Origin: Closterium sp. NIES-65
Lineage: Eukaryota; Streptophyta; Zygnematophyceae; Desmidiales; Closteriaceae
Direction of reading: 5' to 3'
DNA: 64,000 nucleotides
Assembly: GCA_948144175.1 (NCBI GenBank)
Contig: CANXME010000529.1
Location: 1 to 64,000 of the forward strand
Shown here: positions 1 to 64,000 of the stretch, one piece after another
How the letters are laid out: every line of letters begins with the position of its first letter
Numbering within the stretch: position 1 is the first letter of the stretch
Made by a program: the position numbers and the translations under genes
The notes under the pieces: generated by a model
Told to the model about the DNA's origin: nothing
Database searches by the model: none
Seen by the model: only the letters and a program-made list of their open reading frames with translations

Positions 1-3000
1 AAAAGTCATCACATGTATATGCAAGTGCACGCCCTGGGAGACCATCAGTGCGATGTGGAATTTCTCATTCTGCCGGTCTCTCCAATGCCACAATGCACCC
101 CCTCGTTCTGTCTCACCCACCTATGACATGCATGTTTGTGCTCGCATGCATGCACCTGGGAGACATGCATGCACCTGGGAGACATGCATGCACCTGGGAG
201 ACATGCACGCACCTGGGAGAAATGCACGCACTTGGGAGATCTGGACGCACCTGGGAGACCATCAGCGCGATGTGGAAGTTTCTCATCTGCCGGTTGGTTT
301 CTCAACGCAACAAACCCCTCATCTGTCTCGCCCACCTATGACGTGCGTGTTTGTGCCCACACGCACGCACCTGGGAGACCATCAGCGCGATGTGGAAGTT
401 CCTCATTTGGCGGTTTCTCAACGCAATGATTCCCTCATCCTGTTTGGCACCTGGCGGGGTTCAAAAGTGGCACGAGGAGTTGGGTGAAAGTGTCACGCAT
501 GTCACAAAGAGTTCAGTGCAGAAAATACTAGTCCACATTGTAGAGGTTTTTGGGGAGTCAAAAGCAGTTCTTCACCCCCACACACACCTCCAAATAGTTC
601 TCCACCTTCCCCCCTCCCCTCCAAACCCAGCCCGCCCCCCCCCCCTCCCCCCCACACCCTTCCAGCCTACTCACCTTCCGCTCCGCAGTTCCAGCTGAAG
701 TTGTCATTGCTGCGTCCCTCCCCTCCTCCCCATTCGCCTCGTTGTGCTGCCGGGGAGGGAGAGAGAATGGGGTCAGGGGCCAGAGGGGGAGGTGTGGGAA
801 AGAAGGAAGGGAACAGGGAAGGGGTGGGGAATGGGAGGGGGGGCGGGGGGAAGAGGGAGGAAGGACATGAGGGAAGCAGAGAGGATGAGATTGGAAGAGT
901 TTTGGGGGCATCTAAACCAGGAAAGGTAGGGGAAGGAAGGGAACGGGCAGAGGAGATGAGTGCGAACAGGGGGTAAGGGGATGTGAGTAAGGCTGGGGGG
1001 AAGGTGGGGAGAGGGGAAAGAGGGAACGAAATAGAATTACTAATGCCACTACTTCCTTTCTTTTGTTGCGTTTTTTACCTTGACGTTGTAAGACACGAGG
1101 TCCCTGAGTGTGAAACCGTCGTGAGCGATGACAAAGTTAATGCTGTGGTAGGGCTTGCGCTGATTGACCTGCCCGTGGTTACGCGGAGAGCAGGGGAGGG
1201 ATATGCAAGGGATATGATAGGCATGAGGACTTCGTTCTCCCGGGCCACAGAGATGACAGCAACATGAACAGCCAGAGATAAGCATGGTAACATATGGTAA
1301 ATATCCATTTTTGATCCCATGACAGGGAATGGCATGGCAAACACATGTCATCTCACATGGTACACGTCATCTCACATGGTACGTGTCATTCACATGGTGC
1401 GTGTCATCTCACATGGTGCGTGTCATCTCACATGGTGCGTGTCATCTCACATGGTACGTGTCATCTCACAAGTTACATGTCATCTCACATGGCACATGTC
1501 ATCTCAAATGGTACATGTCATCTCACATGGTACATGTCATCTAACATGGCACATGTCATCTCACGTGGTACAGGTCATCTCACACAGAACGTGTCATCTC
1601 ACATGGTACGAGTCATCTCACATGGTACGTGTCATCTCACATGGTACATGTCAGCGGATCCAGCCAGTCGAGTGGCAAACGGCCCTTCATGGCCCTCATC
1701 GCCCTTAATGAATTTGCGCACGTCGTCTCGATACTTGCCGTTCCACTCCGCCCACTGAGATGAAGGTGATGGAAGCACGGCATGGGGATGATGGGGATGG
1801 CATGGCAGGGGGGGTGGGGCGACGGAAGCATGGCATGGGTGGAGAAGGAAGGGTGTGACATCCATGACATACAACCAATGACAGCTCAAGGGCCCCTTCA
1901 TGCCCTCATCGCCCTTGATGAACTTGCGCACGTCGTCTCGGTACTTGCCGTTCCACTCCGCCCACCTGGGATGATGGTGATGGCGGCATGAAATGGCAGG
2001 GGGGGGGGGCGACGGCAGCATGGCATGAGTGGAAAAGGAAGGGTGGTATCATACATGATCATCCATGGCATACAGTCAATGACAGCTCAACGGCCCCTTC
2101 ATGCCCTCATCACCCTTGATGAACTTGCGCACGTCGTCTCGGTACTTGCCGTTCCACTCCGCCCACCTGGGATGATGGTGATGGCAGCATGCATGGCGAT
2201 GATGGTGATGGCAGCATGGCATGGCATGGGGATGGGGCGATGGCAGCATGGCACAGGTGAAAGGAAGGGTGTTACCATCCATGATAGATCATTGATGAGT
2301 GCAGCATGTCATGAGTTTCCTTTCCTATATGACTCAACAGGCAAGGTGTTACCTGTTCCAGTTTGTAAGGGCGTTACCAGTGGGGAAGGCGTTACCTGGT
2401 CAGTTTGTGAAGGCGTTACCAGTGGGGAAGGCGGTTACCATGGTCCAGTTTGTGAAGGCGTTACCAGTGGGGAAGGCGTTACCTGGTCCAGTTTTGTGAG
2501 GGCGTTACCAGTGGGGAAGGCGTTACCTGGTCCAGTTGGGCAAGGCTACCTGTCCTATTCAAGGAAGGTCTTACCTGTCCCAGTTGGGAAGCTTCCCACT
2601 TGGTAGAGTCCCCCACAGTCCCACGGCTCTGCGATCAGCTTGCACTTGGATAGCACCTCGTCCTTGGCAATGGCCTGATGGGGAAGGGGAGGGGGGAAGT
2701 GTGGGAACAGGAGGGGAAGGGGGAGTCGAGGGATGGGAGGAGTGGGAGGTGGGGCGAAACCTATGGTCACCTCCTAGAGTCCCCCACAGTTCAGGGCTCC
2801 GCGATGGGCTTGCACTTTGACAGCACCTAGTCTGTCAAAGGCAATGGCCTTATGAAAGAGGGGGGGGGAGGTTGAGAGGTGGTAGGGCGTGAAGAAAGAC
2901 GGGATGAGAGGAGAGGGGGGTAGGGATGTGACCAATCACTCACCCAAATCATTCACCCGACCCCAGTCACCCACTCCATTCCCTTACCCGATTGAAAGGA

Positions 3001-6000
3001 GGCACTTTGAGGAGCTCTCCATCAGCCTCAGCACAAGGTGACTTTTGAGTCGACTCAAAAGTCACTTTGAGGAGCTCTCCATCAGCCCTCTCAGCACAAG
3101 GTGACTTTTGAGTCGACTCAAAAGTCACTTTGAGGAGCTCTCCATCAGCCCCTCAGCACAAGGTGACTTTTGAGTCGACTCAAAAGTCACTTTGAGGAGC
3201 TCTCCATCAGCCTCAGCACAAGGTGACTTTTGAGTCGACTCAAAAGTCACTTTGAGGAGCTCTCCATCACCCCTCAGCACAAGTCACTGGGGAGGTCAAG
3301 TAAGTGAGGAGATCACTTGCTGCAGTCCCTCGCCCCAACTACTCATCCAATGCCCATCCCAATCACGTACCCGAATGAGAGGAGGCGCTGTTGAGGAGCT
3401 CTCCATCAGCCCTTGGCACAAGTCACTGGGGAGGTCGAGTAAGAGAGGAAATCATTATCCCCAATTTCTCTCCCCAACTACTCGTCCAAAACCCATCCCA
3501 ATCACGTACCCGAATGAGAGGAGGCGCTGTGAGGGGCTCTCCATCGGTCCCTCGGCACAAGGGACACTGGCGAGGTCAAAGCGGAACCCATCCACGTGGT
3601 ACTCCTGGAGGGAGAGGGAGGGGTGTGCGAAGGGGAGAAGAAGAGAGCGGTGAGCAGCGGTGAAAAGGGTTGAGGAGCAGTGGGGGGGGCCTTTGAGGGG
3701 CTCTCCCTCGGTCCCTCGGCACAGGACACTGGCGAGGTCCAAAGCGGAACCCATCCACGTGGTACTCCTGATGGAAGAGGGCGGGAGTGAACGGGACGGA
3801 GGAGACGATATGATTGGTAGGGAGTCAGTGCAAAGGGCACTGGCAAGGTCAAGCGATCCATACGTAGTACTTAGGTGTGCGTGGAAAAGAAGTGTAGGCT
3901 CACTCTCACTCTCACCTCTCACATCACATCACATCACATCACATCACATCACATCACATCACATCACATCACATCACATCACATCGCACCTGTGCTCCCT
4001 CCCTGCCTCCTCCCCCTTCTCCTCTCCCCCATCTCATCCTGCACCCAGTGCCGGAGGCTATCCAGGATCATCTGCATCACCACCGGGTGGTTACAGTTGA
4101 GCGTGCCCCCTCTTCCCATCTCCCCCTTTCTGTCACAACCTCTCCTTATCTCCCCGTCTGCTTTACTCCCCTTCTCACCCTCTACCCCTCCCAATCCCCC
4201 CGCCTCACCTGCACCCAGTGCCGGTGGCTATCCAGGATCATCTGCATCACCACCGGGTGGTTACAGTTGAGCGTGTTACCACACCTGACTGCTTCCTCTC
4301 TCAGTATCTTGTCAGCCTTACTTCCCCACATTCCCACCCGACATGGCCCCTCTTGTACTCTCTGTACGCCCCTCCCCTCAGCCTCACCTGCACCCAGTGC
4401 CGGAGGCTATCCAGGATCATCTGCATCACCACCGGGTGGTTACAGTTGAGCGTGTTACCACACCCAGCATAATTCGCCAGTTGCACATAGCTGTTCGGCT
4501 GAACGATGTAGTATGTCTGGGGGTTAGGAAAGAGGGGCGGGGAGGAGAGGTGGGACGGGGGTTGGGAAAGAGGGGAGGGGAGGAGAGGTGGGGACGGGGG
4601 TTGGGAAAGAGGGGCGGGGAGGGGGAGTGGGGATGGGAGGTGGGGAGGCATTGGCTTGGGAATGAAGGACAGGTAGCAGCCAAGGACGAGGAGGGAATTT
4701 CAGCCCCTTGTTTTTCCCAGACGGGGTTTTGGAGTCCACTCATCAAAAGTCACCTCGAATCAATGAATGGACTCTGCTTCACCCTCACCCATCTGGTTCT
4801 GCTTCCTTCCCACCTTGCTGTCAATGCCCCGGAACAAGGTCGTATACGGGAAGGTACCATCAGCCTCGTTGGTGTGGTTGTAAACCACATCCTGTATCAC
4901 CTCCACCCCCGCCGCATGCAACCACTTCGCCCCTGCTCTTCCCCTACTTCCCACCTTGTTCGTTTGACTGCCCACCCGCATGCACAGCTTCATCCCCAAC
5001 CTGCACCCACTACATCCAGGCGCACACCTTGTTGTCAATCCCCCGGAAAGAGGTCGTACATGGAAAGGTGTCGTCAGCCTCGTTGGTGCGGTTGTAAACC
5101 ACATCCCGTAACACCTCCACCCCCGCCACATGCACCCGATTCACCCCCGCTGCATGCAGCTTTTTTACCGTGCCCTTAACCACAGGGCCACTTAGAGGGA
5201 AGCAGCCTCACAGGCTCATACCTTGTTGTCAATCCCCTGGAAGGAGGTCGTATATGGAAAGGTGTCGTCAGCCTCGTTGGTGCGGTTGTAAACCACATCC
5301 AGAGTCACCTCCACCCCTGCTCCATGCAGCTTTTTCACCGTCTCCTTCACCTCCCTCGCTGCTGCTGCTGCTGCTGCCTCTCAGAAGGCTACTCAATAGG
5401 AAGGAGACAACATCAGAGTCTCGTACCTTGTTGTCGATGCCGCGGAACGAGGTGGTATACGGGAAGGTGTCGTCAGCCTCGTTGGTGTGGTTGTATACCA
5501 CATCTAGAATCACCTCCACCCCCTCCGCATGCAGCTTTTTCACCATCTCCTTCACCTCCCTTGCTGCTGCTACAGGACCGCCGCCGTTAGAGGCGAAGCG
5601 GGACATGGGGGCGAAGAAGTTGACAGTGGAGTAGCCCCACGTGTTCACCTGGGGGGTTGGGAGAAACAAGGAACGTAGCAGAGAGGAGTTGAAGGCGGTT
5701 GAAGGTGGTACTGTGGTCCCCAGCGTTGGAGGCGAAGTGAGACATGGGGGTGAAGAAGTTGACAGTAGCCCCACGTGTTCACCTGTGGAAGAGGGAGAGA
5801 GGGGTTGAAGGCGGTTGAATCTGGTTAGAGGTTCATGTGACGACATGGCATGCAGCTTCTTCACCATCTCCTTCACCTCTCGTGCTGCTGCCACGGGGCC
5901 ACCAGTGTTAGAGGCGAAGCGGGACATGGGGGCAAAGAAGTTGACCGAGGAGTACCCCCACGTGTTCACCTGTTGGTGGTGTGGGAATGTGGCAGGGAAA

Positions 6001-9000
6001 CGGGTTGAAGGTGGTTAGATGTACATGTGATGCCACTGCATGCAGCTTCTTCACCATCTCCTTCACCTCTCGTGCTGCTGCCACAGGGCCACCAGTGTTA
6101 GAGGCGAAGCGGGACATGGGGGCAAAGAAGTTGACCGAGGAGTACCCCCACGTGTTCACCTGTTGGTGGTGTGGGAATGTGGCAGGGAAACGGGTTGAAG
6201 GTGGTTAGATGTACATGTGATGCCACTGCATGCAGCTTCTTCACCATCTCCTTCACCTCCCGCGCTGCTGCCACGGGGCCACCAGCATTGGAGGCGAAGC
6301 GGGACATGGGGCAAAGAAGTTGACCGTGGAGTACCCCCACGTGTTCACCTGTGGGGGAGGAATTGTGGCAGGGAAGGGTTGAAAGCGGTAGAAGGTGGTT
6401 AGAAGTAGATGTGACGACATGGCATGCAGCTGCTTCACCATCTCCTTTCACTCCAAGCTCTTCCTGGTTTCAGGGCTCCAATGTGGTCACAGGAATTGGG
6501 GCGGGGCGCCTCTGCAACTCCATCTCGTCATACTCAAAGATGGGCAGCAGCTCCACCACTGCCACTCCGCTGCCTTCTTCACCCCATCATACTGCATTCC
6601 ACGCCAGATCTACCTTATCTGAGAAACCTAGAGCACTATACCATGTGGTCTCGGGGGTTAGGGCGCCTCTGGAAAACCACCGTGTTCACCCCCAAGTGCC
6701 TTCATTGGCTTCACTTCACCTCATCCCACTGCCTTCCACCTCATCTACCTTATCTGAGAAATCTAGAGCACCATACCATGTGGTCGCGGGGGTTGGGGCG
6801 CCTCTGGAACTCCATCTCATCGTACTCGAAGATGGGCAGCAGCTCCACCGCGTTCACGCCCAGCTGCACCAGGTGCTGCACCTGCATGCATCGAACACGG
6901 GCCACATATGGGTGTATGTGCACGCACGTTAACTCCTGGCGGCAGCAGCTCCACCGCGTTCACGCCCAGCTGCACGAGGTGCTGCACCTGCACGCATGGG
7001 ATATGGACAAGCGGGTGGAGTGCAGGGACTGTATGGGTTGAAATTCATGCACATGAATGAAGGCGCACATCAGCTCAACTGCGCTCACTCACGCCCAGCT
7101 GCACCAGGTGCTGCACCTGCAGGCATGCCACGTGGTAACACAGAAACACGGTGGGTCATGGGAACACACACACAGGGTCGCACATGCAGTCATTCCATAA
7201 ACGCGTTCACATGGGAAGCAACGCAATAGCACGCAGCAGCATGTCACACTAACGCTTACCACCACCTACAGAAACAAAAAAATTAAATGGTTCCACCTTT
7301 GACTTGCACACCCTACCTTATCCGCAACAGCTGAGTAGCTTCCTCGTCCTCCCCTCCTCGACCCCACTAGAGGGATCTGCAGTGTATGCCCGCACGTTCA
7401 TCTCGTATATAATCACGTCTTTCTGCAAACATACAGGAGCACACGAGAGGACAACATGGAGTAGGGATAGAGGCAACAGTCACTATAACTGAGCAGGAAT
7501 ACTAGCTTCCCATGCCACTAGCTATCCCCCCTCCCTCCATCTCACTCCATCTCACTCATTCCCCAGCGATTTACAGGCTTCTTTCTCCAATACAGACAGC
7601 ACTTCTTTTTCGCTCGCTCCTCAACCCCCAACCCACCCACGCACTGCAGTGCAGACACAGGCGCAAACTCAACCTGGAAAGGAGGTGACTTTTGAGTTGA
7701 CTCAAAAGTCGCTGCAGTGGAGATACTGGGACAGACTAAACCTGAAAACCGAAACCTCAACCCCGAAACCTTAACCCCGAAACCCTTTCCCCGAAACCCT
7801 CCCCTTTCATACCTCGGGAATAGGCTTTCTCTTGGCTTCCGCCTCTCCCCAATCGAACGGCTCAGATTCAAAGTCAAAAGTGCCGTACATCTGAGCCATC
7901 CGTTGGCTCCCATCCCCAAATTTCCTTCTCCCATCCACGAGGGGTGCGTAGGGGTCTATCAGCAATAGGGAAGGGTCGAATCGGTGGCCTTCTCCCCACC
8001 CCTTTGGACCGTCCACCTTATAAGCATACAGCATACCGCATAGAGGCACGTTCTGAGGAGACGAGGCAGGGGGGGAAAAAAAGGAAGGTTGAACGATGAC
8101 ACCTGAAATAGAAGGGTATTAACTTAGTTCAGAGCTATGTTTGGCCGTTTTGATATAAGGCGACAGAAGGGAGAGAAGGCAGCCATTCACAAGTCACCCC
8201 ATCAGGACTGCTCACCTCCACAGAAGCATGCCAGATGTCGCCCGTTCGTTGGCTGTTGGGATCCAGGGCAATCTCGAGATCAGGAGGCGAGCCCTGCTTA
8301 CCGGACAGGAACCTGTGCGGAGAAGAGTGAGGGGAACGAGAGGGGGTAGCAAGGAGGAGAGGCTGGAGCTGAACCGATTAATCCTACTAGGACCTAATCT
8401 GGTACCTGATCTCATACGGAATTGAATCTGTGAGGGTCCAGAGACAGCGTGATAGTGGAATGGAAATGGCATCTTGGGGTAAAGATTGACATGGCCTACA
8501 CGCAGGAATTCACGGCTGTAGCGCGACTGAAGACTTAGAGGCAGAGGCTCACGGCTGTAGCGTGGCTAGAGAAAAGTGCAAAGTTGACGGTTCCTCGAGC
8601 AGGCAAAGAGTCACCGCTGTAGCCTGACTAGAAACTTACAGGCAGAGGGTCACGGCTGTAGCATGCTTGGAGAAGAGAGCAAAGTTGACGGTTCCTCGAG
8701 CAGGCAACCTGCTGTAACCGTCTAGCTTGGGTCGCTTCTCCACTAGAGACGGGCCCAGAGGGGAAGGTGAGCCGGTTCCAACCTTCACTTGTGACGCAGG
8801 GACGGGTGTGCTATAAGCGAGTGTTGTTACAACGGAGGAACGTCGCCAGGATGACCACGGGGGCGAAGCTGGGGGGATAGAGGTGGAATCCGATCTCGAG
8901 CCGCGCATGCCCTGAAAGGGATGACGTGTACACGTAGATCAGAAAACGGAAACGGTATGCGTGAGATGTGTTGTTAGCATGCTAAGGAATGATGATGCCA

Positions 9001-9421
9001 ATGACATTGGCAATGAATACGACAACGCCATTTGAGGTGTTCGAGACCATCAATCCGATCTCAAGTTACGCATGTCTTGGAAGGTAGACGATCAGTGATT
9101 ACCATGATCGTGAGGACGATGGCGACGGAAACGACGATATCGATGGGGATGGCTATGGTGATGCTGATCACATCAGATTCATCATCTACCGGCAAAGGCG
9201 AATCATCCAACTTTTCCTACCTTGAAACTTGGAGTCAGCTCCTTGACGAAAACACGCCTTCCGATAGTACACGTGTCCAATGTAGAAACCCTTCGGACGA
9301 ATCCCAGGCTGCCAGGTGGCGCCGCGGCGAAAGTGCTCGCAGGCGGCCTGACGATGCTCGCCTGAGCATTCATGACGAATGCGTCACCAGACGGAATGCC
9401 GGATACTACGCCGGAAATCAT
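1..9421 (-). CDS. ISA3: Isoamylase-type starch debranching enzyme, ISA3-like (partial, 3' end off window)
   Basis: Plastid enzyme that hydrolyses alpha-1,6 branches of glucan; ISA3 acts mainly in starch breakdown (family knowledge). Exons read by eye: 9221-9421 (transit-peptide-like start MISGVVSG), 8640-8911 (CBM48, [19 protein letters not shown]), 8216-8312, 7813-8052 ([15 protein letters not shown]), 7422 to about 7345 ([13 protein letters not shown]), 6777-6881 ([16 protein letters not shown]), 5427-5648 ([32 protein letters not shown]), 4388-4516 ([12 protein letters not shown]), about 3700-3770 (EYHVDGFRF with the catalytic-Asp region), 2575-2674 ([13 protein letters not shown]), 1641-1754 ([19 protein letters not shown]), 1079-1168 ([18 protein letters not shown]), 675-746 ([23 protein letters not shown]), and one ending at 371 ([14 protein letters not shown]). 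The HNEANG and [11 protein letters not shown] segments fit ISA3 better than ISA1/2. Exons 2-5 and 7-8 join in phase. One base appears to be missing at three places (about 2590, 1754 and 705), so the gene may be decaying or misread. The exon linking SSG to VQHLVQ was not found. Confidence 0.85.
36..300 (-). repeat. Exon-end/donor minisatellite of ISA3 (LMVSQ|GT)
   Basis: Copies of the [14 protein letters not shown] exon end lie at about 36-80 and 255-300, downstream of the best copy (371-430). Between them, at about 140-250, is a short tandem array of roughly 18-20 bp units. Read on the minus strand, each unit is the exon end TCTCCCAG followed by the donor GTGCATGCATG. The copy at 36-80 is frameshifted ([14 protein letters not shown]). 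Confidence 0.75.
1344..1650 (-). repeat. 19-bp minisatellite built from exon end plus 5' splice donor of ISA3
   Basis: About 16 tandem units of roughly 19 bp. On the minus strand each reads TACCAT|GTGAGATGACACG or a close variant. TACCAT is the last two codons of the exon 1641-1754 (ADMYH) and GTGAGATG is its splice donor. The array starts directly at that junction and extends into the downstream intron, so it is an amplified exon-intron border and not an unrelated satellite. Confidence 0.85.
1890..2180 (-). repeat. Two 5' echo copies of the ISA3 [11 protein letters not shown] exon
   Basis: Partial copies at about 1890-1968 and 2080-2168 repeat the first half of the exon at 1641-1754 ([20 protein letters not shown]). 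Both keep a CAG acceptor followed by GTGGGCGG. That junction G is absent from the apparent main exon at 1754 and is the base expected to complete the Arg codon carried over from the previous exon. Both diverge after KG, replacing the [13 protein letters not shown] end by unrelated codons. They lie upstream of the main exon. Confidence 0.8.
2340..2560 (-). repeat. Exon-end/donor repeat of the ISA3 CGGLYQVG exon
   Basis: About four units of roughly 44-46 bp, each with two GGTAACGCC blocks on the minus strand. They resemble the end of exon 2575-2674 (CCAACTGGGACAG) plus its GTAAG donor, and lie directly downstream of it. A 5' echo of the same exon (AIA.D...CGGL) lies upstream at about 2770-2850. 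Confidence 0.65.
2985..3560 (-). repeat. Tandem echoes of the ISA3 EYHVDGFRF exon with 28-bp perfect palindromes
   Basis: Between 3001 and 3260 a unit of about 60-63 bp is repeated four times. Each unit carries a fragment of the exon's 3' part (minus strand GAGAGCTCCTCAAAGTG) and a perfect 28-bp palindrome made of GTGACTTTTGAGTC plus its reverse complement. The palindromes lie at 3038-3065, 3101-3128, 3163-3190 and 3223-3250. Further 3' echoes without palindromes lie at 3260-3300, 3360-3430 and 3490-3560. A second, longer copy of the exon start ([14 protein letters not shown]) is at about 3545-3605. Confidence 0.8.
3917..3986. repeat. (ACATC)n microsatellite
   Basis: About 13-14 perfect tandem copies of the pentamer ACATC inside the ISA3 intron between the [12 protein letters not shown] exon and the EYHVDGF exon. 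It is not derived from an exon edge as far as I can see. Confidence 0.9.
4040..4280 (-). repeat. Two 3' echo copies of the ISA3 [13 protein letters not shown] exon
   Basis: Copies at about 4040-4100 and 4210-4275 repeat the last part of exon 4388-4516 ([20 protein letters not shown]). The 4210-4275 copy keeps the CAG|GTGAGG donor. Both lie downstream of the full exon and lack its first half ([17 protein letters not shown]). Confidence 0.85.
4800..5340 (-). repeat. Three 3' echo copies of the ISA3 [11 protein letters not shown] exon
   Basis: Copies at about 4815-4915, 5035-5145 and 5225-5340 repeat the second half of exon 5427-5648 ([18 protein letters not shown] to FRGIDNKV). All lie downstream of the full exon. 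None carries the first half (VNTWGYS to KKLHA). Confidence 0.85.
5700..6355 (-). repeat. 5' echo copies of the ISA3 [18 protein letters not shown] exon
   Basis: Three long copies (about 5850-5970, 6040-6160 and 6230-6350) and one short copy (about 5725-5780) repeat only the first half of exon 5427-5648, from VNTWGYS to KKLHA. They carry the preceding acceptor region and lie upstream of the full exon. The 5850-6210 copies and their intron spacers are nearly identical, forming a tandem repeat of about 190 bp. This is the mirror image of the 3' echoes of the same exon at 4800-5340. Confidence 0.9.
6465..7125 (-). repeat. 5' and 3' echoes flanking the ISA3 [16 protein letters not shown] exon
   Basis: The full exon is 6777-6881. 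Copies of its start ([10 protein letters not shown], preceded by CAG) lie upstream at about 6940-6990 and 7085-7125. Copies of its end ([15 protein letters not shown] and the DHMV donor region) lie downstream at about 6465-6560 and 6640-6670. Confidence 0.8.
7685..7712. repeat. Degenerate copy of the 28-bp palindrome
   Basis: A near-palindrome of the same design as those at 3038-3250 (GTGACTTTTGAGTTGACTC and an arm close to its reverse complement), with two mismatching base pairs. It lies alone in the intron between exons 7422 and 7813 of ISA3, more than 4 kb from the array. Confidence 0.8.
8480..8630 (-). repeat. 3' echo of the ISA3 CBM48 exon
   Basis: Downstream of exon 8640-8911 are copies of its end ([27 protein letters not shown] and further CTACAGCCGTGA fragments), complete with nearby GTAAG/CTAAG donor variants. 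The copy keeps the exon reading frame for about 20 codons. Confidence 0.8.
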
Positions 9422-11761: not shown

Positions 11762-11762
11762 A

Positions 11763-12233: not shown

Positions 12234-12259
12234 CTACCCCCCCCCTAAGGAGGTCCACC

Positions 12260-24553: not shown

Positions 24554-24585
24554 GCAGGCAGTCTCGTCAGTAGTTGGCCCGATTC

Positions 24586-34010: not shown

Positions 34011-34021
34011 AGGAAAGAATC

Positions 34022-37000
34022 TCATGAAAACAGGCCAGTGTGTCCTGTCTTTTCTCGCATCTTCTCCTGCCGCTGCAGCTCCTTCAGAGGGTCAGGGCTC
34101 CGGAAAGACCTTCGGCGCCGGCTGCATACAAAGGAGTGAGAAAATGGAGGGACACAACGAGACATGGTGCAATGTAAGGCTGCCACGGAGAGAAACATTT
34201 ACCATTCTGAAGGATGGGATGCGATAATTTACAGGCATACCGTTCTTTTTCATTCAAGATGGGAAACTCCGGCATGTCTTGCTGCGCCTTCAGCAGAGGC
34301 TCCTCCCTAAACCATGATTGGTTTGCAAACGAGTGGCACAATACCAATATGAAGCATGGGAAGAGAAGACAGGCGTACCGTTCTTTCTCGTTCAAGATGG
34401 GAAACTCGGGCATGTCTTGCTGCGCCTTCAGCAGAGGCTCCTCCCTAAACCATGACTGGTTTGCAAATGAGTGGCACAATACCAATATGAAGCATGGGAA
34501 GAGAAGACAGGCGTACCGTTCTTTCTCGTTCAAGATCGGAAACTCGGGCATGTCTTGCTGCGCCATCGGCAGCGGCTCCTCCCTAAACCACGCGTGATTC
34601 GCCGCATCCGCAGCACTGATCCGACGGCTGGGATCGCACGCGAGCATCCGCGACAGCAAATCAAACCCCGCCTCTGACAGCGTCGGCTTCCCGCCAATCG
34701 AAATCGCCGGAAACAGCTCCCTCAGCCGATTCACCGTGAAAGACGGAAACCGGGCTCCCTTTTTGCACGCGGGCAGCTCCGAAAACCCTCGCCAGGTGTC
34801 GTCAGTGGGGGTGCCGAGGAGCGAGAAGATCTTTTGCAGCTGCTCTATTTCGGATTCTCCTTTGAAGAGTGGTTTCTTGGTCATTATTTCGGCCATGATG
34901 CATCCCATGGACCACACGTCGATGGCCGTGGAATACTCCTTTTGGCCCAGCAGCAGCTCAGGTGCTCTGGCGGGCGGTGGGTGATGGGTGATGGGAGGAG
35001 AGAGAACGAAGTGAGTGGGGGGGATGAGAAGAGAAATGAGCGCATTTGTGGAAAATCACCACTCACCCGTACCACAATGCATCCTAGAGACCACCCATCT
35101 ATGGCTATTTGTGGAACACTCCTTTTGCCACAGCAGCAGCTCTGGTATTGGCATACTTGTGGCACAGTGTAAGGAACACTCACCGTTACCATAGGGTAAC
35201 CACAGGCTGTGTATACAGGCGCAGCGGATTCCCATACTGCCGCACCAGACCAAAGTCATATCTTGATCCCCCCGGCATTGTTCATGAGCAGATTCACGCA
35301 TACCATGCACCTGCAGCCCAGCACACCTATAGCAAAGAAGACTCCTGCAGGGTACCCCAGAGTAAAACTGAAAATCACCACTCACCGGTACCACAGAGTA
35401 ACCACAGGCTGAGTGTACGGCCGCAGCGGCGGATCCCCATACCGCCTCGCCAGGCCATAATCACATATCCTGATCCCCATACCGCCTCGCCAGGCCATAA
35501 TCACATATCCTGATCCCCATACCGCCTCGCCAGGCCATAATCACATATCCTGATCCCCATACCGCCTCGCCAGGCCATAATCACATATCCTGATCCCCAT
35601 ACCGCCTCGCCAGGCCATAATCACATATCCTGATCCCCATACCGCCTCGCCAGGCCATAATCACATATCCTGATCCCCATACCGCCTCGCCAGGCCATAA
35701 TCACATATCCTGATCCCCATACCGCCTCGCCAGGCCATAATCACATATCCTGATCCCCATACCGCCTCGCCAGGCCATAATCACATATCCTGATCCCCAT
35801 ACCGCCTCGCCAGGCCATAATCACATATCCTGATCCCCATACCGCCTCGCCAGGCCATAATCACATATCCTGATCCCCATACCGCCTCGCCAGGCCATAA
35901 TCACATATCCTGATCCCCATACCGCCTCGCCAGGCCATAATCACATATCCTGATCCCCATACCGCCTCGCCAGGCCATAATCACATATCCTGATCCCCAT
36001 ACCGCCTCGCCAGGCCATAATCACATATCCTGATCCCCATACCGCCTCGCCAGGCCATAATCACATATCCTGATCCCCATACCGCCTCGCCAGGCCATAA
36101 TCACATATCCTGATCCCCATACCGCCTCGCCAGGCCATAATCACATATCCTGATCCCCATACCGCCTCGCCAGACCATAATCACATATCCTGATCCCCAT
36201 ACCGCCTCGCCAGGCCATAATCACATATCCTGATCCCCATACCGCCTCGCCAGGCCATAATCACATATCCTGATCCCCATACCGCCTCGCCAGGCCATAA
36301 TCACATATCCTGATCCCCATACCGCCTCGCCAGGCCATAATCACATATCCTGATCCCCATACCGCCTCGCCAGGCCATAATCACATATCCTGATCCCCAT
36401 ACCGCCTCGCCAGGCCATAATCACATATCCTGATCCCCATACCGCCTCGCCAGGCCATAATCACATATCCTGATCCCCATACCGCCTCGCCAGGCCATAA
36501 TCACATATCCTGATCCCCATACCGCCTCGCCAGGCCATAATCACATATCCTGATCCCCATACCGCCTCGCCAGGCCATAATCACATATCCTGATCCCCAT
36601 ACCGCCTCGCCAGGCCATAATCACATATCCTGATCCCCATACCGCCTCGCCAGGCCATAATCACATATCCTGATCCCCATACCGCCTCGCCAGGCCATAA
36701 TCACATATCCTGATCCCCATACCGCCTCGCCAGGCCATAATCACATATCCTGATCCCCATACCGCCTCGCCAGGCCATAATCACATATCCTGATCCCATA
36801 CCGCCTCGCCAGACCATAATCACATATCCTGATCCCCATACCGCCTCGCCAGGCCATAATCACATATCCTGATCCCCATACCGCCTCGCCAGGCCATAAT
36901 CACATATCCTGATCCCCATACCGCCTCGCCAGGCCATAATCACATATCCTGATCCCCATACCGCCTCGCCAGGCCATAATCACATATCCTGATCCCCATA

Positions 37001-40000
37001 CCGCCTCGCCAGGCCATAATCACATATCCTGATCCCCATACCGCCTCGCCAGGCCATAATCACATATCCTGATCCCCATACCGCCTCGCCAGGCCATAAT
37101 CACATATCCTGATCCCCATACCGCCTCGCCAGGCCATAATCACATATCCTGATCCCCATACCGCCTCGCCATGCCATAATCACATATCCTGATCCCCATA
37201 CCGCCTCGCCAGGCCATAATCACATATCCTGATCCCCATACCGCCTCGCCAGGCCATAATCACATATCCTGATCCCCATACCGCCTCGCCAGGCCATAAT
37301 CACATATCCTGATCCCCATACCGCCTCGCCAGGCCATAATCACATATCCTGATCCCCATACCGCCTCGCCAGGCCATAATCACATATCCTGATCCCCATA
37401 CCGCCTCGCCAGGCCATAATCACATATCCTGATCCCCATACCGCCTCGCCAGGCCATAATCACATATCCTGATTCCCATACCGCCTCGCCAGGCCATAAT
37501 CACATATCCTGATCCCCATACCGCCTCGCCAGGCCATAATCACATATCCTGATCCCCATACCGCCTCGCCAGGCCATAATCACATATCCTGATCCCCATA
37601 CCGCCTCGCCAGGCCATAATCACATATCCTGATCCCCATACCGCCTCGCCAGGCCATAATCACATATCCTGATCCCCATACCGCCTCGCCAGGCCATAAT
37701 CACATATCCTGATCCCCATACCGCCTCGCCATGCCATAATCACATATCCTGATCCCCATACCGCCTCGCCAGGCCATAATCACATATCCTGATCCCCATA
37801 CCGCCTCGCCAGGCCATAATCACATATCCTGATCCCCATACCGCCTCGCCAGGCCATAATCACATATCCTGATCCCCATACCGCCTCGCCAGGCCATAAT
37901 CACATATCCTGATCCCCATACCGCCTCGCCAGGCCATAATCACATATCCTGATCCCCATACCGCCTCGCCAGGCCATAATCACATATCCTGATCCCCATA
38001 CCGCCTCGCCAGGCCATAATCACATATCCTGATTCCCATACCGCCTCGCCAGGCCATAATCACATATCCTGATCCCCATACCGCCTCGCCAGGCCATAAT
38101 CACATATCCTGATCCCCATACCGCCTCGCCAGGCCATAATCACATATCCTGATCCCCATACCGCCTCGCCAGGCCATAATCACATATCCTGATCCCCATA
38201 CCGCCTCGCCATGCCATAATCACATATCCTGATCCCCATACCGCCTCGCCAGGCCATAATCACATATCCTGATCCCCATACCGCCTCGCCATGCCATAAT
38301 CACATATCCTGATCCCCCCCGCGTTGTTCATGAGCAACGACTCACTGTGCAGAAGAAAACATTTGTGATATGAGTTGGCTCGTACCTGTACCATAGGGTA
38401 GCCACAGGCTGGGTGTACGGCTGCAGCGGATCCCCATACTGCCTCGCCAGGCCAAAGTCACGTCACACCTGCAGTACACAGACACTTGTACCGCAGGGAA
38501 AAGAACACCTACCTGTACCACAGGGTAACCACGGGCTGAGTGTACGGCCGAAGCGGATCCCCATATTGTCTCGCCAGGCCAAAATCGCATATCTTGATCC
38601 CCCCCGCGTTGTTCATGAGCAGATTCGACGTCTTCAGATCCCGATGCAGCACCCAATTCGCATGCATGTAGCTTATCCCCTCTAGAAGCTGCTTCACTAA
38701 ACACTTCACCTCCGCCTGCCCGAAGGGCCTTGGCATTGCGTCTAAAAGCACCTTTAAGTCATGCTCTACATATTCCATCACCATGAAAACCCGATCCATG
38801 GATGAATTAACTACCATCTCCTTCACCCCCACGATCGCCGGGTGGTCTAGAGACAATAGTATATTAATCTCCCGGAGCGACGTCAGCGGGAAACCCTCTC
38901 GCTCCTTCTCCATCTTGACTCGTTTGAGAGCATAAATCTCCCCGGTTTCTTTGTCCCGAGCGCGATGCACCACACCGTACACGCCCTCCCCGAGCACGTC
39001 GAGCCGTTCAAAAGAGTCCACACTGCGACAGCCGCCGAATATGGCTTTCACCGCTGCTGCATCGGCTGCTGCTTCTGCTGCTGCTTCTGCTGCTCCTGCT
39101 TCTGACAACGATGGATCATAGGGAAGAGGAGACGTGGAGCTCTCCCGGAACTTATCATCCCTCCTTCGATCATCAATCCCTTCGTTATCTCCTTTTCTAT
39201 CCACATCACCCTCATCCTCGTCCTTACCCTCACCATCAGCCTCCCTCTCTGCCTTCTTCCTCCCCTCTTCGATACCTCCCCCACCTTCTCCTTCCTTCAC
39301 ACTCTCACCCCCTCTACTGCCAACCTCTTCACTATCACCACCCTCCCTCCACCTCCTCTTGCTCCTACCTCCCTCCTGCTCCTCCCCTTTTCCCTTCCCC
39401 TTCCCGTTCCCCTCCTCATCTCCCTCCCCCTCCCCCTCCCCCTCCCCCTCCATAGTATTAGCCCCCCCGTCTCTCCTTCCACCCCTATCATTAGGGGTAT
39501 TATCCCCCGTTCTACCCTCCTCATCCGGGGTACTAACCCTCATTCTACCCTCCTCATCCGGGGTATTAACCCTCGCTCTACCCTCCTCATCTGCTCCCTC
39601 TCCTGCTCCTTCCCCTGCTCCCTCCTCCTCCTCCTCTTCATCCAACCATCTGCTACCCCATTTCGAACCACCCACTCCCTCCGTTCGCTCCCTTCCCTCC
39701 TCCTCCTTCCCCCCTTCCTCCTCCCCATGCCCTGCCGCCATATCCCCCACCTCACCTTCCTCTCTCCACCCTTCCTTCTCTCCCTCTCCGCCACTCATCT
39801 CCTCCTCTCCCCCCCTTGCTCTCCCCTTTCTCCCTTCATCCCCCTTTCCCTTCCCTTCCATCCCTTCTTCCATATCTCCCACTTCATCATCTCCCCACCT
39901 GCTCCTCTTTACACTTCCCCCTACTCTCTTCCTCTCCTCTCCTTCCTCCAATTCCTCTCCATCCTCCCTCCGACCTCTCTTCTTACCCCCCTCCCCCTCC

Positions 40001-46524: not shown

Positions 46525-49500
46525 CTAACTATTTGCTGCTGGGGCAGCAGCAGCAGCAGCATCTGCAGATGCATAATTATCGTACTCATCCCCTTTATTG
46601 CCTCCCTCGTTACCATCCTCACTACTCAGAGTAGCTGCTGGTACATCCTCTGCAAGTTCATTGCTACGGTCATGAGGGTCATAGGTGTCGTACAGGACGG
46701 GCTGATTCGAGGTTTGAGAGGTCTCAAAGAGGGTGTTGCTGGAGTCGGGAGGATTGTACGTGTCGTATGGAAGGGGCTGGTTTGAGAGCAGCAGGGATCC
46801 GTAGGGGGAGTTGTCAGTGGTTAGGGTTGAATGCTCCTGGTCATGCTGTGGGAGGGGAGGTGGGAGCGGGTAGGGAGGGAACAGAGGGACGAGGGATGAG
46901 GGTTAGAAGGTTAGGGAGTTTAGCAGCAGTGTCAGTGGTTAGGGTTAAATGCTCCTGGTCATGCTGTGAGAATGGAGAGCGGGGAGGGAGAGCGGGGAGG
47001 AAGAGAGAGAGGGGAGACAGTGGAGGGAGGAGATTTGAAGGGAAAGAGGAGGTTTGTGCACTACAGTCACATGAATTACTACAACACAACACTCGATACA
47101 GTCACACTCACCAGAGCCTCCATTCACTCACCCTACTTGCATACAATGCTCCAGTCACACTCGATACAGTAACACACTCACTAAAGTTACACTCACCAAA
47201 GCCTCGAGTCTCTTCAACAGCTGCACCACCTCCCCCATGGGGGGGCAGTCTGTCGGTTCAGCTGCCTGCCATACACCTGCCTGCCATACACGCCTTACTC
47301 ATAGCAGTCACGCACATTACTTGCACACAATGCTCCAGTCACACTCGATACAGTAACACACTCACTACAGTCACACTCACCAGGGCCTCTAGTCTCTTCA
47401 ATGACTGAACCACCTCGCCCATGGGGGGTCGGTCTGTCGGCTCAGCAGCCACACACGCCTGTGCCACGGCTGCTGCTTGCTCCAGATCACTAAGTGACAC
47501 CTGGCGGTGCGATGGGAAGGGGGGGAGCATTATACAGATGAGACTGGGGGCGCATTCCTGGTGTGTGGAGGGGGGAGAGGGAGGGTTCGTTGCCTGTCGG
47601 TTCAGCCGCCACACACGCCTGTGCCACGGCTGCTGCTTGCTCCAGATCACTGGGTGATACCTGATGGTGTGACAGGGAAAGGGGGGAGCATGTACAAATG
47701 AGAACAGGGGAGGGGAGGGAGTTGCACATTGATCAACGCCCATCAAGCCCGTACACAAAGGCATTTGGCCAAGCAAAATTGGTGGTAGCCTCATGGAGCG
47801 CATACCTACCTAGGCAAACAAACAGGCCACCAGAGTCAAGAAAATCCAAGAGAGTCTCACCTGGGAAGCAATCTTGGGGTCCAAAAGCTCGTCTAGTCTT
47901 CCAGCATTCCCCAAGCGAGGTCGCGCCCACGTGACTAGTCTTCCAAAACACCTGGGAAGCTCGTCTAGTCTTCCAAAACACCAGGCAAACACCTGGGAAG
48001 CTCGTCTAGTCTTCCAAAACACCAGGCAAACACCTGGGAAGCTCGTCTAGTCTCACCTGGGAGCGTCTCACCTGGGAGCGTCTCACCTGGGAAGCAATCT
48101 TGGGGTCCAAAAGCTCGTCTAGTCTTCCAGCATTCCCCAAGCGAGGCCGCGCCCACGTGACTAAGTTCTCATCTCCAGGGGGTTGGCTCATGTCGACGGG
48201 CTTCCTCCCTGTGAGCAGCTCCAGAAGCACCACGCCATAGCTGTACACGTCACTGGCTACCACGAGATGCCCCGTCATTGCGTATTCTGGGGCCACATAG
48301 CTGGGTAGAGGGAGAGGGAGGGGAAGGGAAGGGCAGGCCGCAGGGGGGGGGGGGGGGGGGGGGGGGTGATGTCCACAGGCTTCCTCCCTCCTTGTGAGCA
48401 GCTCCAGCAGCAGCACGCCATAGCTGTACACGTCTGATGCAACCACCAGGTGACCCGTCATGGCGTATTCCGGGGCGACATACCTGGGAGGAATGGGGAG
48501 GGGCAGGGGCAGGAGTGGAAGAGGCGGTGAGAGTGGGGCAAGGGCTGGCTCATGTCGACGGGCTTCCTCCCTGTGAGCGGCTCTAAAAGCGCCACGCCAT
48601 GGCTGTACACGTCTGATGCAACCACCAGGTGACCCGTCATTGCATACTCTGGAGCGACGTAGCTGGGTAGAACGAGAGGGAGGGTAAGGGAAGGGCAGGG
48701 GAGGGAGGAGGCAATGACGGGGGCGGCTGGGTCATGTCCACGGGATTCCTGCCTGTGAGCGGCTCTAAAAGCACCACGCCATAGCTGTACACGTCACTGA
48801 CAACCAGGAGGTGACCCGTCATTGCGTACTCTGGCGAGAAAACTGTTCTCGATGAATAGTTGTAGGTAGAGCCACACCACAGGCATTGCAAAGGCTTCCC
48901 GCCTTCCTGCGTCTCACCCAATCACACATGCCCCTCACTGACTCACCCAAACGTGCCCATGACTCGGGTCGAGATGTATCCCTCGGGTCCCTCCGGTGCA
49001 GGTTTCGCCAGCCCGAAATCCGCCACCTTAGCGAGAAAGTCATTCTCGAGAAGGATGTTGGAGGACTTGAGGTCACGGTGAATGACAAGCGGCTGAGAGT
49101 CCTCGTGCAGATACGCCAGCCCCCTCGCTGCCCCTAGCGCTACCCTCATGCGCGTTGCCCAATCCAGCACGATCTCCTTGGAGAAGGAGCCTGGTGGGGG
49201 AAGAAAAGGAGGGGAGGGGAGGGGAGGGGAGGGGCAAGGGAGGACTTGAGGCCGCAGTGAATGGCGAGCGGCTGTGAGTCCTCGTGCAGATATGCCAGCC
49301 CCCTCGCTGCCCCTAGCGCTACCCTCATGCGCGTCGCCCAATCCAGCACGATCTCCTTGGAGAAGGAGCCTGGTGGGGGAAGAAAAGGAGGGGAGGGGAG
49401 GGGAGGGGAGGGGCAAGGGAGGACTTGAGGCCGCAGTGAATGGCGAGCGGCTGTGAGTCCTCGTGCAGATAGGCCAGCCCCCTCGCTGCTCCCAGTGCCA

Positions 49501-52500
49501 CCCGCACGCGTATTGCCCAGTCCAGCACAATCTCTTAGGAGAAAGAGCCTGGAAGGGGGGGAGGTGGAGGGGAGGGAAGGTGGAGGGGAGGGAAGGTGGA
49601 GGGGAGGGATGCGGTGGCAGCAGGGGAGAGAGAGAAGGAGAGCGAGTGGGGAGGTTGGCGTGAAAGTCGTTCTTTGGGAGGATGTTGGAGGAGTTGAGGT
49701 CGCAGTGAATCGGGGGGGGCTGTGAGTCCTCGTGTCGATAGGCCAAGCCCCTCGCTGCCATCGATGGGATGGGAGGGGATGGGAGGGGGTGGGAGGGGGT
49801 GGGGAGGGATGGGAGGGGATGGGAAGGGATGGGAGGGGATGGGAGAGGATGGGAGGGAATGGGAGGGAATGGATGCAATGGGAGGGAGCATGGGACAGTA
49901 GCCTATGAGCTTCACGAGGTTGCAGTGGTGCAGGCAGCTCAGCATCTCCTCCTCCACCACAAACTCGCCCAGGGAGGGGAGCGTACCCACCCACCCACCA
50001 TGCAATGAGACATATCCTGAGACCTAGAAAAGCAAAATGCAAGGGGAAGGACACCCACCATGCAGCCAGGCTTCCAGGCTGCCGTTGGAAACGAGCTCAT
50101 AACACAGCAGCTGGTGGTGGTGGGAGGCGCAGTAGCCTATCAGCTTGACCAGATTCCGGTGGTGCAGGCGGGTCAGCATCTCCACCTCCACCACAAACTC
50201 GCTCAGGGCACAGAAGGGAAGGAAGGGAGGGCACTTACCATGCAGCCAGGCTTCCAAGCTTCCGTTGGGAACAAGCTCGTAGCACAGCAGCTGGTGGTGG
50301 TGGGAGGCACAATAGCCAATCAGCTTGACCAGATTCCAGTGGTGCAGGCGGGTCAGCATCTCCACCTCCACCACAAACTCGCTCGGGGAGGAGGGTGGTG
50401 GGGCACCCACCCATTCACCCACCCACCAACCCACCCGCCCACCTACCCACCCAGCCAGCCGCCATGCAAGCAGACGTGCTAGCAGCAGGAGGAGGAAAAC
50501 ATACCATGCAGCCAGGCCTCCAGGCTCCCATTGGGAACAAGCTCGTAGCACAGCAGCTGGTGGTGGTGGGAGGCGCAGTAGCCAATCAGCTTGACCAGAT
50601 TCCGGTGGTGCAGGCGGCTGAGCATCTCCACCTCCACCACAAACTCGCGCTCGCCCTGCCCGCCCCCTCCGCCTCCCCCCTTGGCGCGCCCGCTGCCTGT
50701 CATGCGCAGGCGGGTGAGCCGCTTCACTGCCACCTCCTGCCCGTTCTTCAGCCTCCCCCGGTATACTCGCCCGAACCCTCCCTCCCCTAGGTAATTGGCG
50801 TGATCAAAACTGGGAAGATTCAAGAAGAAAGGGGGAAGGGGGGGGGGGAGGGGGGGGATGAGGAGGTGACTCGCAGGCGGGTGAGCCGCTTCACTGCCAC
50901 CTCCTGCCCGTTCTTCAGCCGCCCCCGGTACACGCGCCCGAACCCTCCCTCCCGTAGATAGTTTCCGTGGTCGAAACTGGAGCAGGGGTGGGGAAAGGAA
51001 GAAGGGAAAAGGGGGTGAGCTGAGGGGGTGCTCCCGCTGCCGGTCATGCGCAGGCGGGTGAGGCGCTTCACAGCCACATCCTGCCCGTTCTTCAGCCTCC
51101 CTCTGTACACGCGACCGAACCCGCCCTCTCCCAGGTAGTTGGCGGGGTCGAAACTGGGGGGCAAAGGGAGAAAGGAGGGAGGAAGGGATGAGGGGGTGGG
51201 TGGGCGGGTGAGGCGCTTCACTGCTACCTCCTGCCCGTCCTTCAGCCTCCCTCTGTAGATGCGGCCGAACCCGCCCTCCCCTAGATAGTTCCCGTGATCA
51301 AAACTGTGAGGGGGTTGGGGAGTAAACGAGGAAGGAGAGAGGAAGGGACGAGGGGGTAGGTGAGTGTGTGAGGCGCTTCACTGCAAGCTGCTAGCACCGT
51401 ACATAATAGTAGCCTCTGCCAGCACCGTACATAATAGTAGCCTCTGCCAGCACCGTACATAATAGTAGCCTCTGCCAGCAACGTACATAATAGTAGCCTC
51501 TGCCAGCACCGTACATAATAGTAGCCTCTGCCAGCACCGTACATAATAGTAGCCTCTGCCAGCAACGTACATAATAGTAGCCTCTGCCAGCACCGTACAT
51601 AATAGTAGCCTCTGCCAGCACCGTACTTATTAGTAGCCTCTGCCAGCAACGTACATAATAGTAGCCTCTGCCAGCACCGTACATAATAGTAGCCTCTGCC
51701 AGCACCGTACATAATAGTAGCCTCTGCCAGCAACGTAACTATTAATAGCCTGTGCCAGCAACGTACTTATTAGTAGCCTCTGCCAGCTCAGCAAATGTGA
51801 AGACTCGAACGCTCATTGGCCGAGGGAGAGAGGACTGATTCGTTGACTCGGCCACTGGTGTCTCCTGCATTCCCATTCCACTCCCCCTGTCAACCCCACT
51901 GCCACCACCACCGTTCCCTCCACCTCCCTCTCCCCCTCCTCCTCCTCCCCCTCCTCCTTCTCCACCTCCTCCTCCCTCTTTTCCTCTTCCGCTACCATTC
52001 TCACTGTTGTCACACCCGTGATAGCCATCCGCAGCACCATTCCCTTGGGAACCTTCCTTTCGCTCTGACGCATTTTGGGCAGCAGCAGCGGACGAAGCTT
52101 CCCTCACCATCTGACGAATCTTCTCCTCCTCCCCCCCTTTCTCCATGTCCCTACCGCCTTTCCCCCTCCCAGGCACGCAGCAGCAGCAGTATATCGTGAT
52201 TATAACGATCAGCGCTATAAGCACCGCCGCCCCTGCCAGTAACCCTATTAGTGCTACCGTGCTTATACCGCTGCTGCTACCACTGCTCCCATTGCCCTCA
52301 CTCCCGCTATTACTGCTACTGCTGCTCTCACTGCTACTGCTGCTGCTGTTGCCGCTGCTCTCACCACCGTTAGATTTGTTATCTGTGCCATTTGAGTTGG
52401 ATTGATCCGACGGTGGCGCAGGTACGGGGGCTTGGGGTGGCGGAGGGGGAGGCGGAGGGGGTGGGGGACCTGGCGCAAATGGGTAGGAAAAAGCGGCACG

Positions 52501-62051: not shown

Positions 62052-62234
62052 GGCGGGGGTGTCGGGCGAGCTCAGCGAGAGCCTCGGTCGTGGCCGTGCG
62101 TGCTTACGAGAGAGCACTACGAGCGGCGGTGCTATATCGCTGAGAGACGTCTACCCCCCCCCAAAAATTGAGATAGCGGGGAAGCGAAAATGTGGGTGCG
62201 GTCCGCGAGGAGATCGTAGGCTCTGAATACCAAG

Positions 62235-62576
62235 TGTTACGAGTGCAATTGAGTAAGTGAATGAGAATTGCACTACCGAAGCAAAAATACAATGAGCGAA
62301 GGCATGAGCGAAGAATATATAGCGAAACTACAGTGGTAACGGTGATGGAATGTGGTTGTCGCGTGACGGGCCTGGGACTGAGGTTTGGGAAAGTGTCGAA
62401 GCGGAGGCCCGGAGCGCGGGTTACCAGCCGAGCCGTGAGGTTGGGGTGCGATGTGCGAAAATGGCGGGCTGATTGTCGATGCGAGGGTCGCGAGTGGTAA
62501 CGGTGCTGACAGTGGTGCTATAGTGATGTACGCGTTGAGCAGGGATGCGAAGTAAGGAAAAATAATTTTCCTTACA
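62235..62576 (-). repeat. Gypsy 2 5' LTR (right copy)
   Basis: 342 bp, same ends as the left copy, followed by the target duplication gaggt. The primer site lies just left of 62235. Confidence 0.92.
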
Positions 62577-62890
62577 GAGGTGAAGCGAAATACACTAGTG
62601 ACGGGGATATGGTGTTGAAAATAGTGGAAACGGAGCAGCAGCAGGTAATCCCGGTAACCTCCTCTCCTTCTAGGGTACCTGTAAGTGAAGCCTTGTGAAA
62701 AGAATAGCAAATTGCCAGGCTCCCATTAGCACATACGGTACTAGTTAACACCGTACTTCTGTGGCAGTCCATGACAAGCTTTATATCCCGCAAGCAGGAC
62801 ACTGTAACACATGTTAATGAGGCACGTGTTTTGCAACCAGACCACAAATTCTTGTATCAAAACTCCAGCCACACCGGATCTTGAATATGC

Positions 62891-63960: not shown

Positions 63961-63965
63961 AGGGC
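63745..63965 (-). repeat. 5' echoes of the membrane-protein exon
   Basis: Copies of the exon start (CAG|GTGGGTCGGCTTGTCATC, RLVIIRGFISIILALKI) at about 63745-63808, and a weaker copy at about 63905-63960. Both lie upstream of the full exon and diverge before DAQNPRNK. Confidence 0.85.
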
Positions 63966-64000
63966 AGGAAGGGAGGGAGCGCAGGTTTCCAATAACCACC

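Follow-up and report, generated by a model that had tools for sequence, protein, structure and literature searches.

Introns of Closterium sp. NIES-65 very probably grow by local head-to-tail duplication, leaving polarized partial copies of exon edges

The stretch of DNA analyzed here, in the following called the window, comprises positions 1-64000 of a contig of the green alga Closterium sp. NIES-65 (CANXME010000529.1, here C529). It carries the genes for isoamylase 3 (ISA3), CDKG, and an ALE2-like receptor kinase, all on the minus strand, and partial copies of the exons of these genes, which we term echoes and which lie on the same strand, populate many of their introns. ISA3 (371..9421) continues beyond the left edge of the window. 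Its 14 exons (exons 1 to 7 at 9221-9421, 8640-8911, 8216-8312, 7813-8052, 7317-7422, 6777-6881, and 5427-5648; exons 8 to 14 at 4388-4516, 3510-3604, 2575-2674, 1641-1754, 1079-1168, 675-746, and 371-450) were modeled by spliced alignment to P0241 of strain NIES-64 and P0242 of strain NIES-68, with the edges of exons 5 and 13 set by hand. A predicted protein of Closterium sp. NIES-64 matched a hand-joined ISA3 query from the window at 96% identity. The two exons of CDKG (exon 1, 38513..39045; exon 2, 34517..34966) were read from open frames and splice signals, which leaves the 5' end of exon 1, i.e., its upper limit, uncertain. Five exons of the receptor kinase, modeled up to position 50809 (46528..50809; exons 1 to 5 at 50505-50809, 48947-49190, 48087-48300, 47381-47500, and 46528-46845), are based on spliced alignment to P0121 of NIES-54 and P0122 of Naga37s-1, and a hand-joined query from the window shared 91% identity with a predicted protein of Closterium sp. 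NIES-54.

In the assembly of this haploid alga, the same genes occur two or three times in near-identical form, on contigs C529, C277, and C1906. C277 represents a second copy of the window, with identities of 99.7% over 1-36997, 98.2% over 36752-57492 when gap columns are counted, and 99.0% over 59619-64000, the last of these stretches aligning without gaps. C1906 represents a third copy of ISA3, compared for this gene only, with 44 substitutions in 11979 aligned bases. The drop in identity between C529 and C277 from 99.7% to 98.2% was considered as a sign of exchange and rejected, because it is mostly made up of gap columns; the differences behind it number 88 in 37 kb and 85 in 20.8 kb. In positions 1-4711, the window shows numerous 1-bp indels relative to C277, and the ISA3 frame errors found there are not present in C277, indicating that this contig end is poorly polished; the 14 joined ISA3 exons of C277 contain no stop codon. 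The published NIES-65 assembly comprises 876 Mb and was obtained from haploid cells with PacBio/Canu, and near-identical copies in haploid strains are read there as aneuploidy or segmental duplication (PMC10407611). The multiplicity of C529, C277, and C1906 agrees with the copy-number variation that this publication describes.

To describe the arrangement of the echoes, each of the 21 exons of ISA3, CDKG, and the kinase was compared, together with 150 bp on either side, with its own gene; matches overlapping the exon by less than 15 bp were excluded, here and in the copy counts for C277 and for loci outside the window. Among the resulting 124 matches, 20 included the acceptor edge of the exon, 22 included the donor edge, and 82 were internal. 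All 20 acceptor-side copies were found upstream and all 22 donor-side copies downstream of their exon. Thus, the rule put forward in an initial annotation of this DNA, that copies of the 5' part of an exon precede it and copies of its 3' part follow it, held for 42 of 42 edge copies, which form 23 exon-edge families. Every one of them resides in the adjoining intron, with no further exon modeled on that side for 7 of them. Internal pieces were mostly units of a 40-bp array in CDKG (71 of 82), and the other 11 lay on the side of the exon half from which they derive, one of them barely. Full-exon copies and inverted copies each numbered zero among the 124 matches. On C277, the same comparison found the polarized arrangement for all acceptor-side copies (20 of 20), all donor-side copies (20 of 20), and all internal pieces that do not belong to the array (13 of 13). 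In the whole window, 386 direct self-matches contrast with 8 inverted ones, the nearest inverted pair being 1.4 kb apart, and the three gene regions contained 155 local direct and no local inverted matches.

Local copies that reach into the intron were found, which bears out the proposal that the echoes are duplications at the DNA level that include intron sequence. Of the copies that reach the splice site, 19 of 19 retained the acceptor AG and 16 of 18 the donor GT. Divergence of the copies from their exon was up to about 27%. The offset to the nearest copy ranged from 101 to 266 bp with a median of 170 (23 families), which is near the size of a nucleosome or an Okazaki fragment, a possible hint at replication. 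The copies lie next to or close to each other, with diverged sequence often occupying the space between them, so that strict adjacency may not apply to every pair.

In ISA3, exon 7 is preceded by four copies of its 5' part including the acceptor (5724-5825, 5848-5986, 6038-6176, and 6228-6399) and by an internal piece (6422-6447), upstream echoes which amount to a tandem array (5724..6447) of 3.3 copies with a period of ~190 bp, and it is followed by three copies of its 3' part (4812-4920, 5026-5145, and 5083-5366). Exon 6 has 5'-part copies upstream (6941-7127 and 7068-7126) as well as a 3'-part copy (6577-6674) and an internal piece (6503-6557) downstream. The downstream echoes of exon 9, two with the donor and four internal, now constitute a 60-bp array (2969..3436), and one copy of its 5' part with the acceptor lies upstream (3691..3785). 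For exon 10, a 5'-part copy was detected upstream (2775..2872) and a short 3'-part copy downstream (2343-2369). The remaining ISA3 echoes lie on one side of their exon only: exon 8 has two aligned copies of its 3' part with the donor downstream (4033..4285), exon 11 has two aligned copies of its 5' part with the acceptor upstream (1894..2284), exon 2 has one 3'-part copy downstream at an offset of 101 bp (8510..8606), and exon 14 has two 3'-part copies downstream (27-82 and 245-323). No echo was found at 6 of the 14 ISA3 exons.

CDKG exon 1 is followed by 3'-part echoes at 35155-35295, 35384-35478, and 38383-38459, and the intron also contains a 40-bp minisatellite derived from an internal piece of the exon 1 coding sequence (35432-38310), whose units are 99% alike. 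CDKG exon 2 has downstream copies of its 3' part and donor with a period of 138 bp (34200..34452) and an upstream 5'-part copy (35077..35146). In the kinase gene, exon 1 is flanked upstream by three copies of its 5' part and acceptor (50872..51309) and downstream by 3'-part copies, two with the donor and one internal (49896..50382). Exons 2 and 3 each have three 5'-part copies upstream, two with the acceptor and one internal, with periods of ~179 bp (49239..49759) and ~183 bp (48357..48834), respectively. Downstream of exon 3, a copy of its 3' part with the donor (47850-47937) is accompanied by short internal pieces (47957-47975 and 47998-48016). Exon 4 has its 5' part copied upstream (47594-47703) and its 3' part copied downstream (47089-47128 and 47121-47266), and a 5'-part copy of exon 5 lies upstream of it (46930..46990). 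A transposon-derived insertion should have further copies of its unit at other places; one 301-bp piece around kinase exon 3, searched in the genome, matched its own locus and the second copy only. In a 28-bp tandem array upstream of kinase exon 1 (51388-51787), C529 and C277 show three differences of unit size. In the gene at the right edge of the window (63418-63974), direct repeats at 63418-63480 and 63534-63596 are 95% alike over 63 bp at an offset of 116 bp, and a longer match of 67% occurs at an offset of 182 bp.

The arrangement is not confined to the window. Five kinase loci on other contigs were chosen by hand among the kinase matches, and 15 of their 21 aligned exons were used, the others being doubtful. 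At three of the five, every edge copy was polarized (11 of 11 on one side, 10 of 10 on the other), 3 of these 21 copies depending on two uncertain exon ends, which are alignment ends only; the other two loci (L024 and L027) gave no echo matches. One internal piece at L025 lies on the wrong side for its exon half, the 3' end of this exon being uncertain. This recurrence supports the claim that polarized echoes are common in this genome. Two local inverted matches were found at the five loci. In ten arbitrary stretches of the genome, local direct repeats occurred in nine and local inverted repeats in none, with a coverage of 0-100%.

It was initially considered surprising that duplications should stop inside exons so consistently, and slippage or microhomology repair at splice junctions was proposed as a cause. 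A process aimed at exon edges is compatible with the frequent presence of the acceptor or donor dinucleotide within the duplicated unit, and the kinase gene, with 7 of 8 internal splice edges covered by local duplication (5.2 expected; standard deviation, 1.3), provides the largest single excess. Across eight genes, however, there was no excess at splice edges over random positions: 24 of 56 edges were covered, compared to 26.0 for randomly shifted positions, with 12 of 26 in ISA3 (13.4 expected), 0 of 2 in CDKG (1.5 expected), and 5 of 20 at the five outside loci (5.9 expected). Duplicated coverage on the intron side was greater away from the edges than near them, amounting to 39% within 50 bp of the edge, 37% at 50 to 100 bp, 62% at 100 to 200 bp, 78% at 200 to 400 bp, and 85% deeper in the intron, the last value probably reflecting mostly the CDKG intron with the 40-bp array. 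Tandem arrays confined to the intron were common. We therefore consider a junction-aimed process very improbable. Inside exons, duplications covered 48% of the outermost 25 bp and 21% of the sequence lying more than 100 bp from the edge. Duplications fill the introns and thin out in the exons, as would be the case if they were poorly tolerated in coding sequence.

Units placed at random with the observed offsets on the real exon maps hit exactly one splice edge in 26% of cases, the intron only in 62%, the inside of an exon in 8%, and a whole exon in 4%, so that duplications ending inside exons call for no special process. Simulated random duplications with ISA3-like exon lengths produced 1022 upstream 5'-part copies and 1101 downstream 3'-part copies, and 406 full-exon copies when full-exon duplications were allowed, in a simulation that keeps exons whole and whose geometry fixes the side of each truncated copy.

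These observations lead us to propose, with considerable confidence, that introns of this genome grow by local head-to-tail duplication and that the echoes are the visible part of this process. Introns would be lengthened by duplications of about 100-270 bp, presumably made by unequal exchange or replication slippage, and units would subsequently be gained and lost. A duplication straddling an acceptor would yield the intron end and the exon start twice, and since only the downstream copy continues into the exon, the truncated copy would necessarily lie upstream; a duplication crossing a donor would likewise leave its truncated copy downstream. Polarity would thus follow from the geometry of duplication together with the survival of one uninterrupted exon, and no other arrangement can result when one tandem duplication occurs and the exon stays whole. 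Duplications of a whole exon or within an exon would alter the mRNA and are hence expected to be removed, which suggests that full-exon copies were lost by selection. Our confidence applies to intron growth and to the geometry of the copies; the divergence between exons and echoes is a separate matter, discussed below.

In keeping with growth by duplication, longer introns of the three genes had a larger duplicated fraction (Spearman 0.89; P = 9e-7; n = 18, read on C277). Duplication was absent from five introns, which measured 163-390 bp, and made up more than half of eleven others, which measured 435-2227 bp. Moreover, the number of units varied among close relatives of the locus, as expected of tandem duplications. 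Indels of at least 10 bp between C529 and C277, in the aligned stretches up to 57492, matched the sizes of local repeat units: 180 bp at 50159, corresponding to one unit length of the kinase exon 1 echo, are missing from C277, and further indels comprised 15 bp twice, 28 bp twice, and 18 plus 10 bp in the 28-bp array. The CDKG 40-bp array consists of 72 units in the window and 39 on C277. C1906 lacks 61 bp of the ISA3 exon 9 echo array and 48 bp of an exon 7 echo; its remaining large differences are a 24-bp simple repeat and two differences, of 23 and 301 bp, outside the modeled exons.

The error-rich first ~4.7 kb of the window, with the 1-bp indels mentioned above, could raise the suspicion that the echoes are artifacts of a poorly polished long-read contig. 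Yet the errors of this contig are small indels rather than duplications, the copies have diverged from their exon to the extent given above, and they recur on separately assembled contigs, namely, on C277 for all three genes, on C1906 for ISA3, and at the other loci. An origin of the echoes in the assembly, which had been named as a possible refutation, is so improbable that we attach hardly any weight to it.

Two observations weigh against this proposal in its plain form. The absence of full-exon copies exceeds chance only weakly (12.6% of hits on a junction expected; 0 of 23 families; P = 0.046). The divergence between exon and echo, moreover, bears a coding signature. Codon positions were counted on the cleaner contig C277 for 33 families, comprising 70 copies, of which 11 were internal pieces, and omitting units of the 40-bp array as well as copies overlapping the exon by less than 30 bp. 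Exon and echo differed by 5.3% at position 1, 6.3% at position 2, and 21.5% at position 3, i.e., by 5.8% at positions 1 and 2 combined. In a neutral dead copy, differences at positions 1 and 2 are expected to be at least half as frequent as those at position 3, because positions 1 and 2 change freely only in the echo and position 3 changes in both sequences. The observed ratio was 0.27 (interval over families, 0.22-0.36), with similar values for the window genes on C277 (0.27) and for three other loci (0.28). GC content at third positions (GC3) showed no shift (76.3% in echoes versus 76.0% in exons), and in the window genes the ratio of nonsynonymous to synonymous divergence (dN/dS) between exon and echo was 0.12, and 5 stops occurred in 1150 codons. 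Given the ratio of 0.27, the unshifted GC3, and the few stops, plain duplication and decay is an incomplete account.

The simplest version of neutral debris, in which every echo arose from its own exon and was free to decay from then on, is at odds with these values: the ratio excludes 0.5 both in the window genes and at the three other loci, and GC3 did not drop. Position 3 exceeded position 2 in difference by 8 times for A, 6 times for T, 2.6 times for C, and 2.1 times for G; A and T, together with position 1, contribute most of the surplus. The values for G and C come close to the factor of 2 that a neutral echo allows, which leaves some room for mutation bias and favors simple decay, whereas the six- to eightfold values for A and T do not. 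Simple decay would require synonymous sites to mutate about twice as fast as the rest of the exon, and the intron flanks showed no base preference of this kind (13.0-15.5% for all four bases), which argues that base composition does not explain the excess at position 3, with the reservation that the flanks are an unreliable neutral yardstick since pyrimidine tracts misalign. The neutral recent pattern and the frame-breaking indels described next speak in favor of the simplest version, which on balance we consider unlikely.

Alternatively, the echoes might be retained by selection as decoy splice sites, as initially suggested, or as alternative coding units. The coding signature, with its dN/dS of about 0.12 and its ratio of 0.27, speaks for such retention, and the AG and GT dinucleotides were retained in 35 of 37 copies. 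We estimate, however, that this retention is near the neutral expectation for copies with ~5-7% change of their own. Recent changes in the echoes, moreover, look neutral: between the near-identical copies of the locus, changes at positions 1 and 2 relative to position 3 were 6:2 for C529 versus C277 and 5:2 for C1906 versus C277, and the pooled 11:4 fits the neutral expectation of about 10:5 and not the ratio of 0.27 (P = 0.003), although some of the C529 differences may be assembly errors. True exons gave 3:5, which is not significantly different from the echoes (Fisher P = 0.18), and in these small numbers no present coding constraint on the copies was apparent. The frame was broken by 27 of 30 indels in exon-derived parts, some of which are possibly assembly errors. 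An internal AG-GT that would permit copies to be swapped was present in 6 of 22 families on C277, with 6.5 expected. For NIES-64, NIES-68, and NIES-54, the gene models account for the predicted proteins without echo sequence. The predicted kinase of Naga37s-1, on the other hand, overruns the exon 4 donor, and the aligner placed 35 bp of the overrunning tail in an exon 4 echo (47092-47126), which may be a fault of the prediction or may mean that the echo is used in that strain. Altogether, maintenance of the echoes by selection appears improbable.

Differences that are coding-like in the long term and neutral in the recent past are most easily reconciled if divergence mostly accumulated while both sequences were coding. 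Most of the divergence between exon and echo thus probably predates the death of the copy, and the echo has probably been dead for a shorter time. We regard the chances as about even that, as a second layer on top of intron growth by local duplication, much of this divergence arose while both sequences were coding. Units may have been exchanged or duplicated between diverged haplotypes, so that the time since an echo died would be shorter than its synonymous divergence indicates. Divergence while coding would be explained by exchange at meiosis between diverged haplotypes in the zygote, and also by edge and echo repeatedly swapping roles. In searches with the kinase and ISA3, no diverged second copy of either gene was present among the scored candidates in the genome. 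It is tempting to speculate, although we consider it unlikely, that exon edges are interchangeable, each live edge changing places with its echoes again and again through unequal exchange or gene conversion; this fits coding-like long-term divergence as well as neutral present-day differences. If this were true, selection would meet each unit in turn, the echo arrays would be reservoirs of synonymous variants, and intron growth would be a by-product of exon-edge turnover.

Long terminal repeat (LTR) retrotransposons are present at 11903-33613 and 54903-62576. Copia-type domains (RVT_2 and integrase) were detected at 27154-31122, with a related copy near 15400-20950, and Ty3-type domains, including a chromodomain below threshold, at 55269-57266 and 59614-62150, with related pieces at 11903-26237. 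About 2.1 kb at 57493-59618 are missing from C277 and are bounded by 212-bp direct repeats (57492-57703 and 59407-59618) that are 99% alike; the absence of 57492-59618 is as would be seen for an LTR-type insertion present in one copy only. Upstream of the modeled CDKG exon, ~6 kb (39000-45000) consist of 70-93% C+T on the plus strand, with a GC skew of -0.73 over 40-44 kb. Of the long plus-strand open frames in 39000-45000, one was scanned and gave no Pfam match.

In the open-access literature, surveyed by titles and the beginnings of abstracts, we found no description of polarized partial exon copies as a habit of a genome. Duplications within genes are reportedly common (internal gene duplication; Gao and Lynch 2009, cited in PMC4974935), and the duplications seen here also lie inside genes. 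In the model of intron gain by tandem duplication (Hellsten 2011, cited in PMC4974935), duplication of an exonic AGGT gives rise to a new intron. The type of mutation is the same, but here existing introns lengthen, and a duplicated AGGT as the source of both splice sites was no more frequent than expected on C277 (the 6 of 22 families mentioned above). Minisatellites and variable-number tandem repeats differ in unit number, and the CDKG 40-bp array of 72 or 39 units resembles them; most echo families, in contrast, comprise between one and four diverged units offset by about 170 bp. A close parallel is the RdRp gene of potato, a single gene in which a tandem duplication crosses the boundary between an intron and an exon (PMC4974935). 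As in our echoes, the head-to-tail duplicate comprises the intron end and the start of the next exon, splice signals included. Unlike the potato case, in which one event created a new intron, many copies are found here in most long introns, and there is no good sign of echoes being spliced in. The single type of event is therefore known, which makes the initial statement that no process of this kind has been described too strong; this density of copies and its effect on intron length we did not find described in the literature surveyed.

Our analysis provides a usable rule, in that a truncated exon copy indicates the junction whose tandem duplication lengthened the intron. Annotation of such genomes should expect echoes bearing intact splice signals. 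Because long-term divergence is coding-like whereas recent differences are neutral, exchange between exons and their copies in introns can be put to the test. Local head-to-tail duplication offers a way of intron growth that can be counted, in an alga closely related to land plants.

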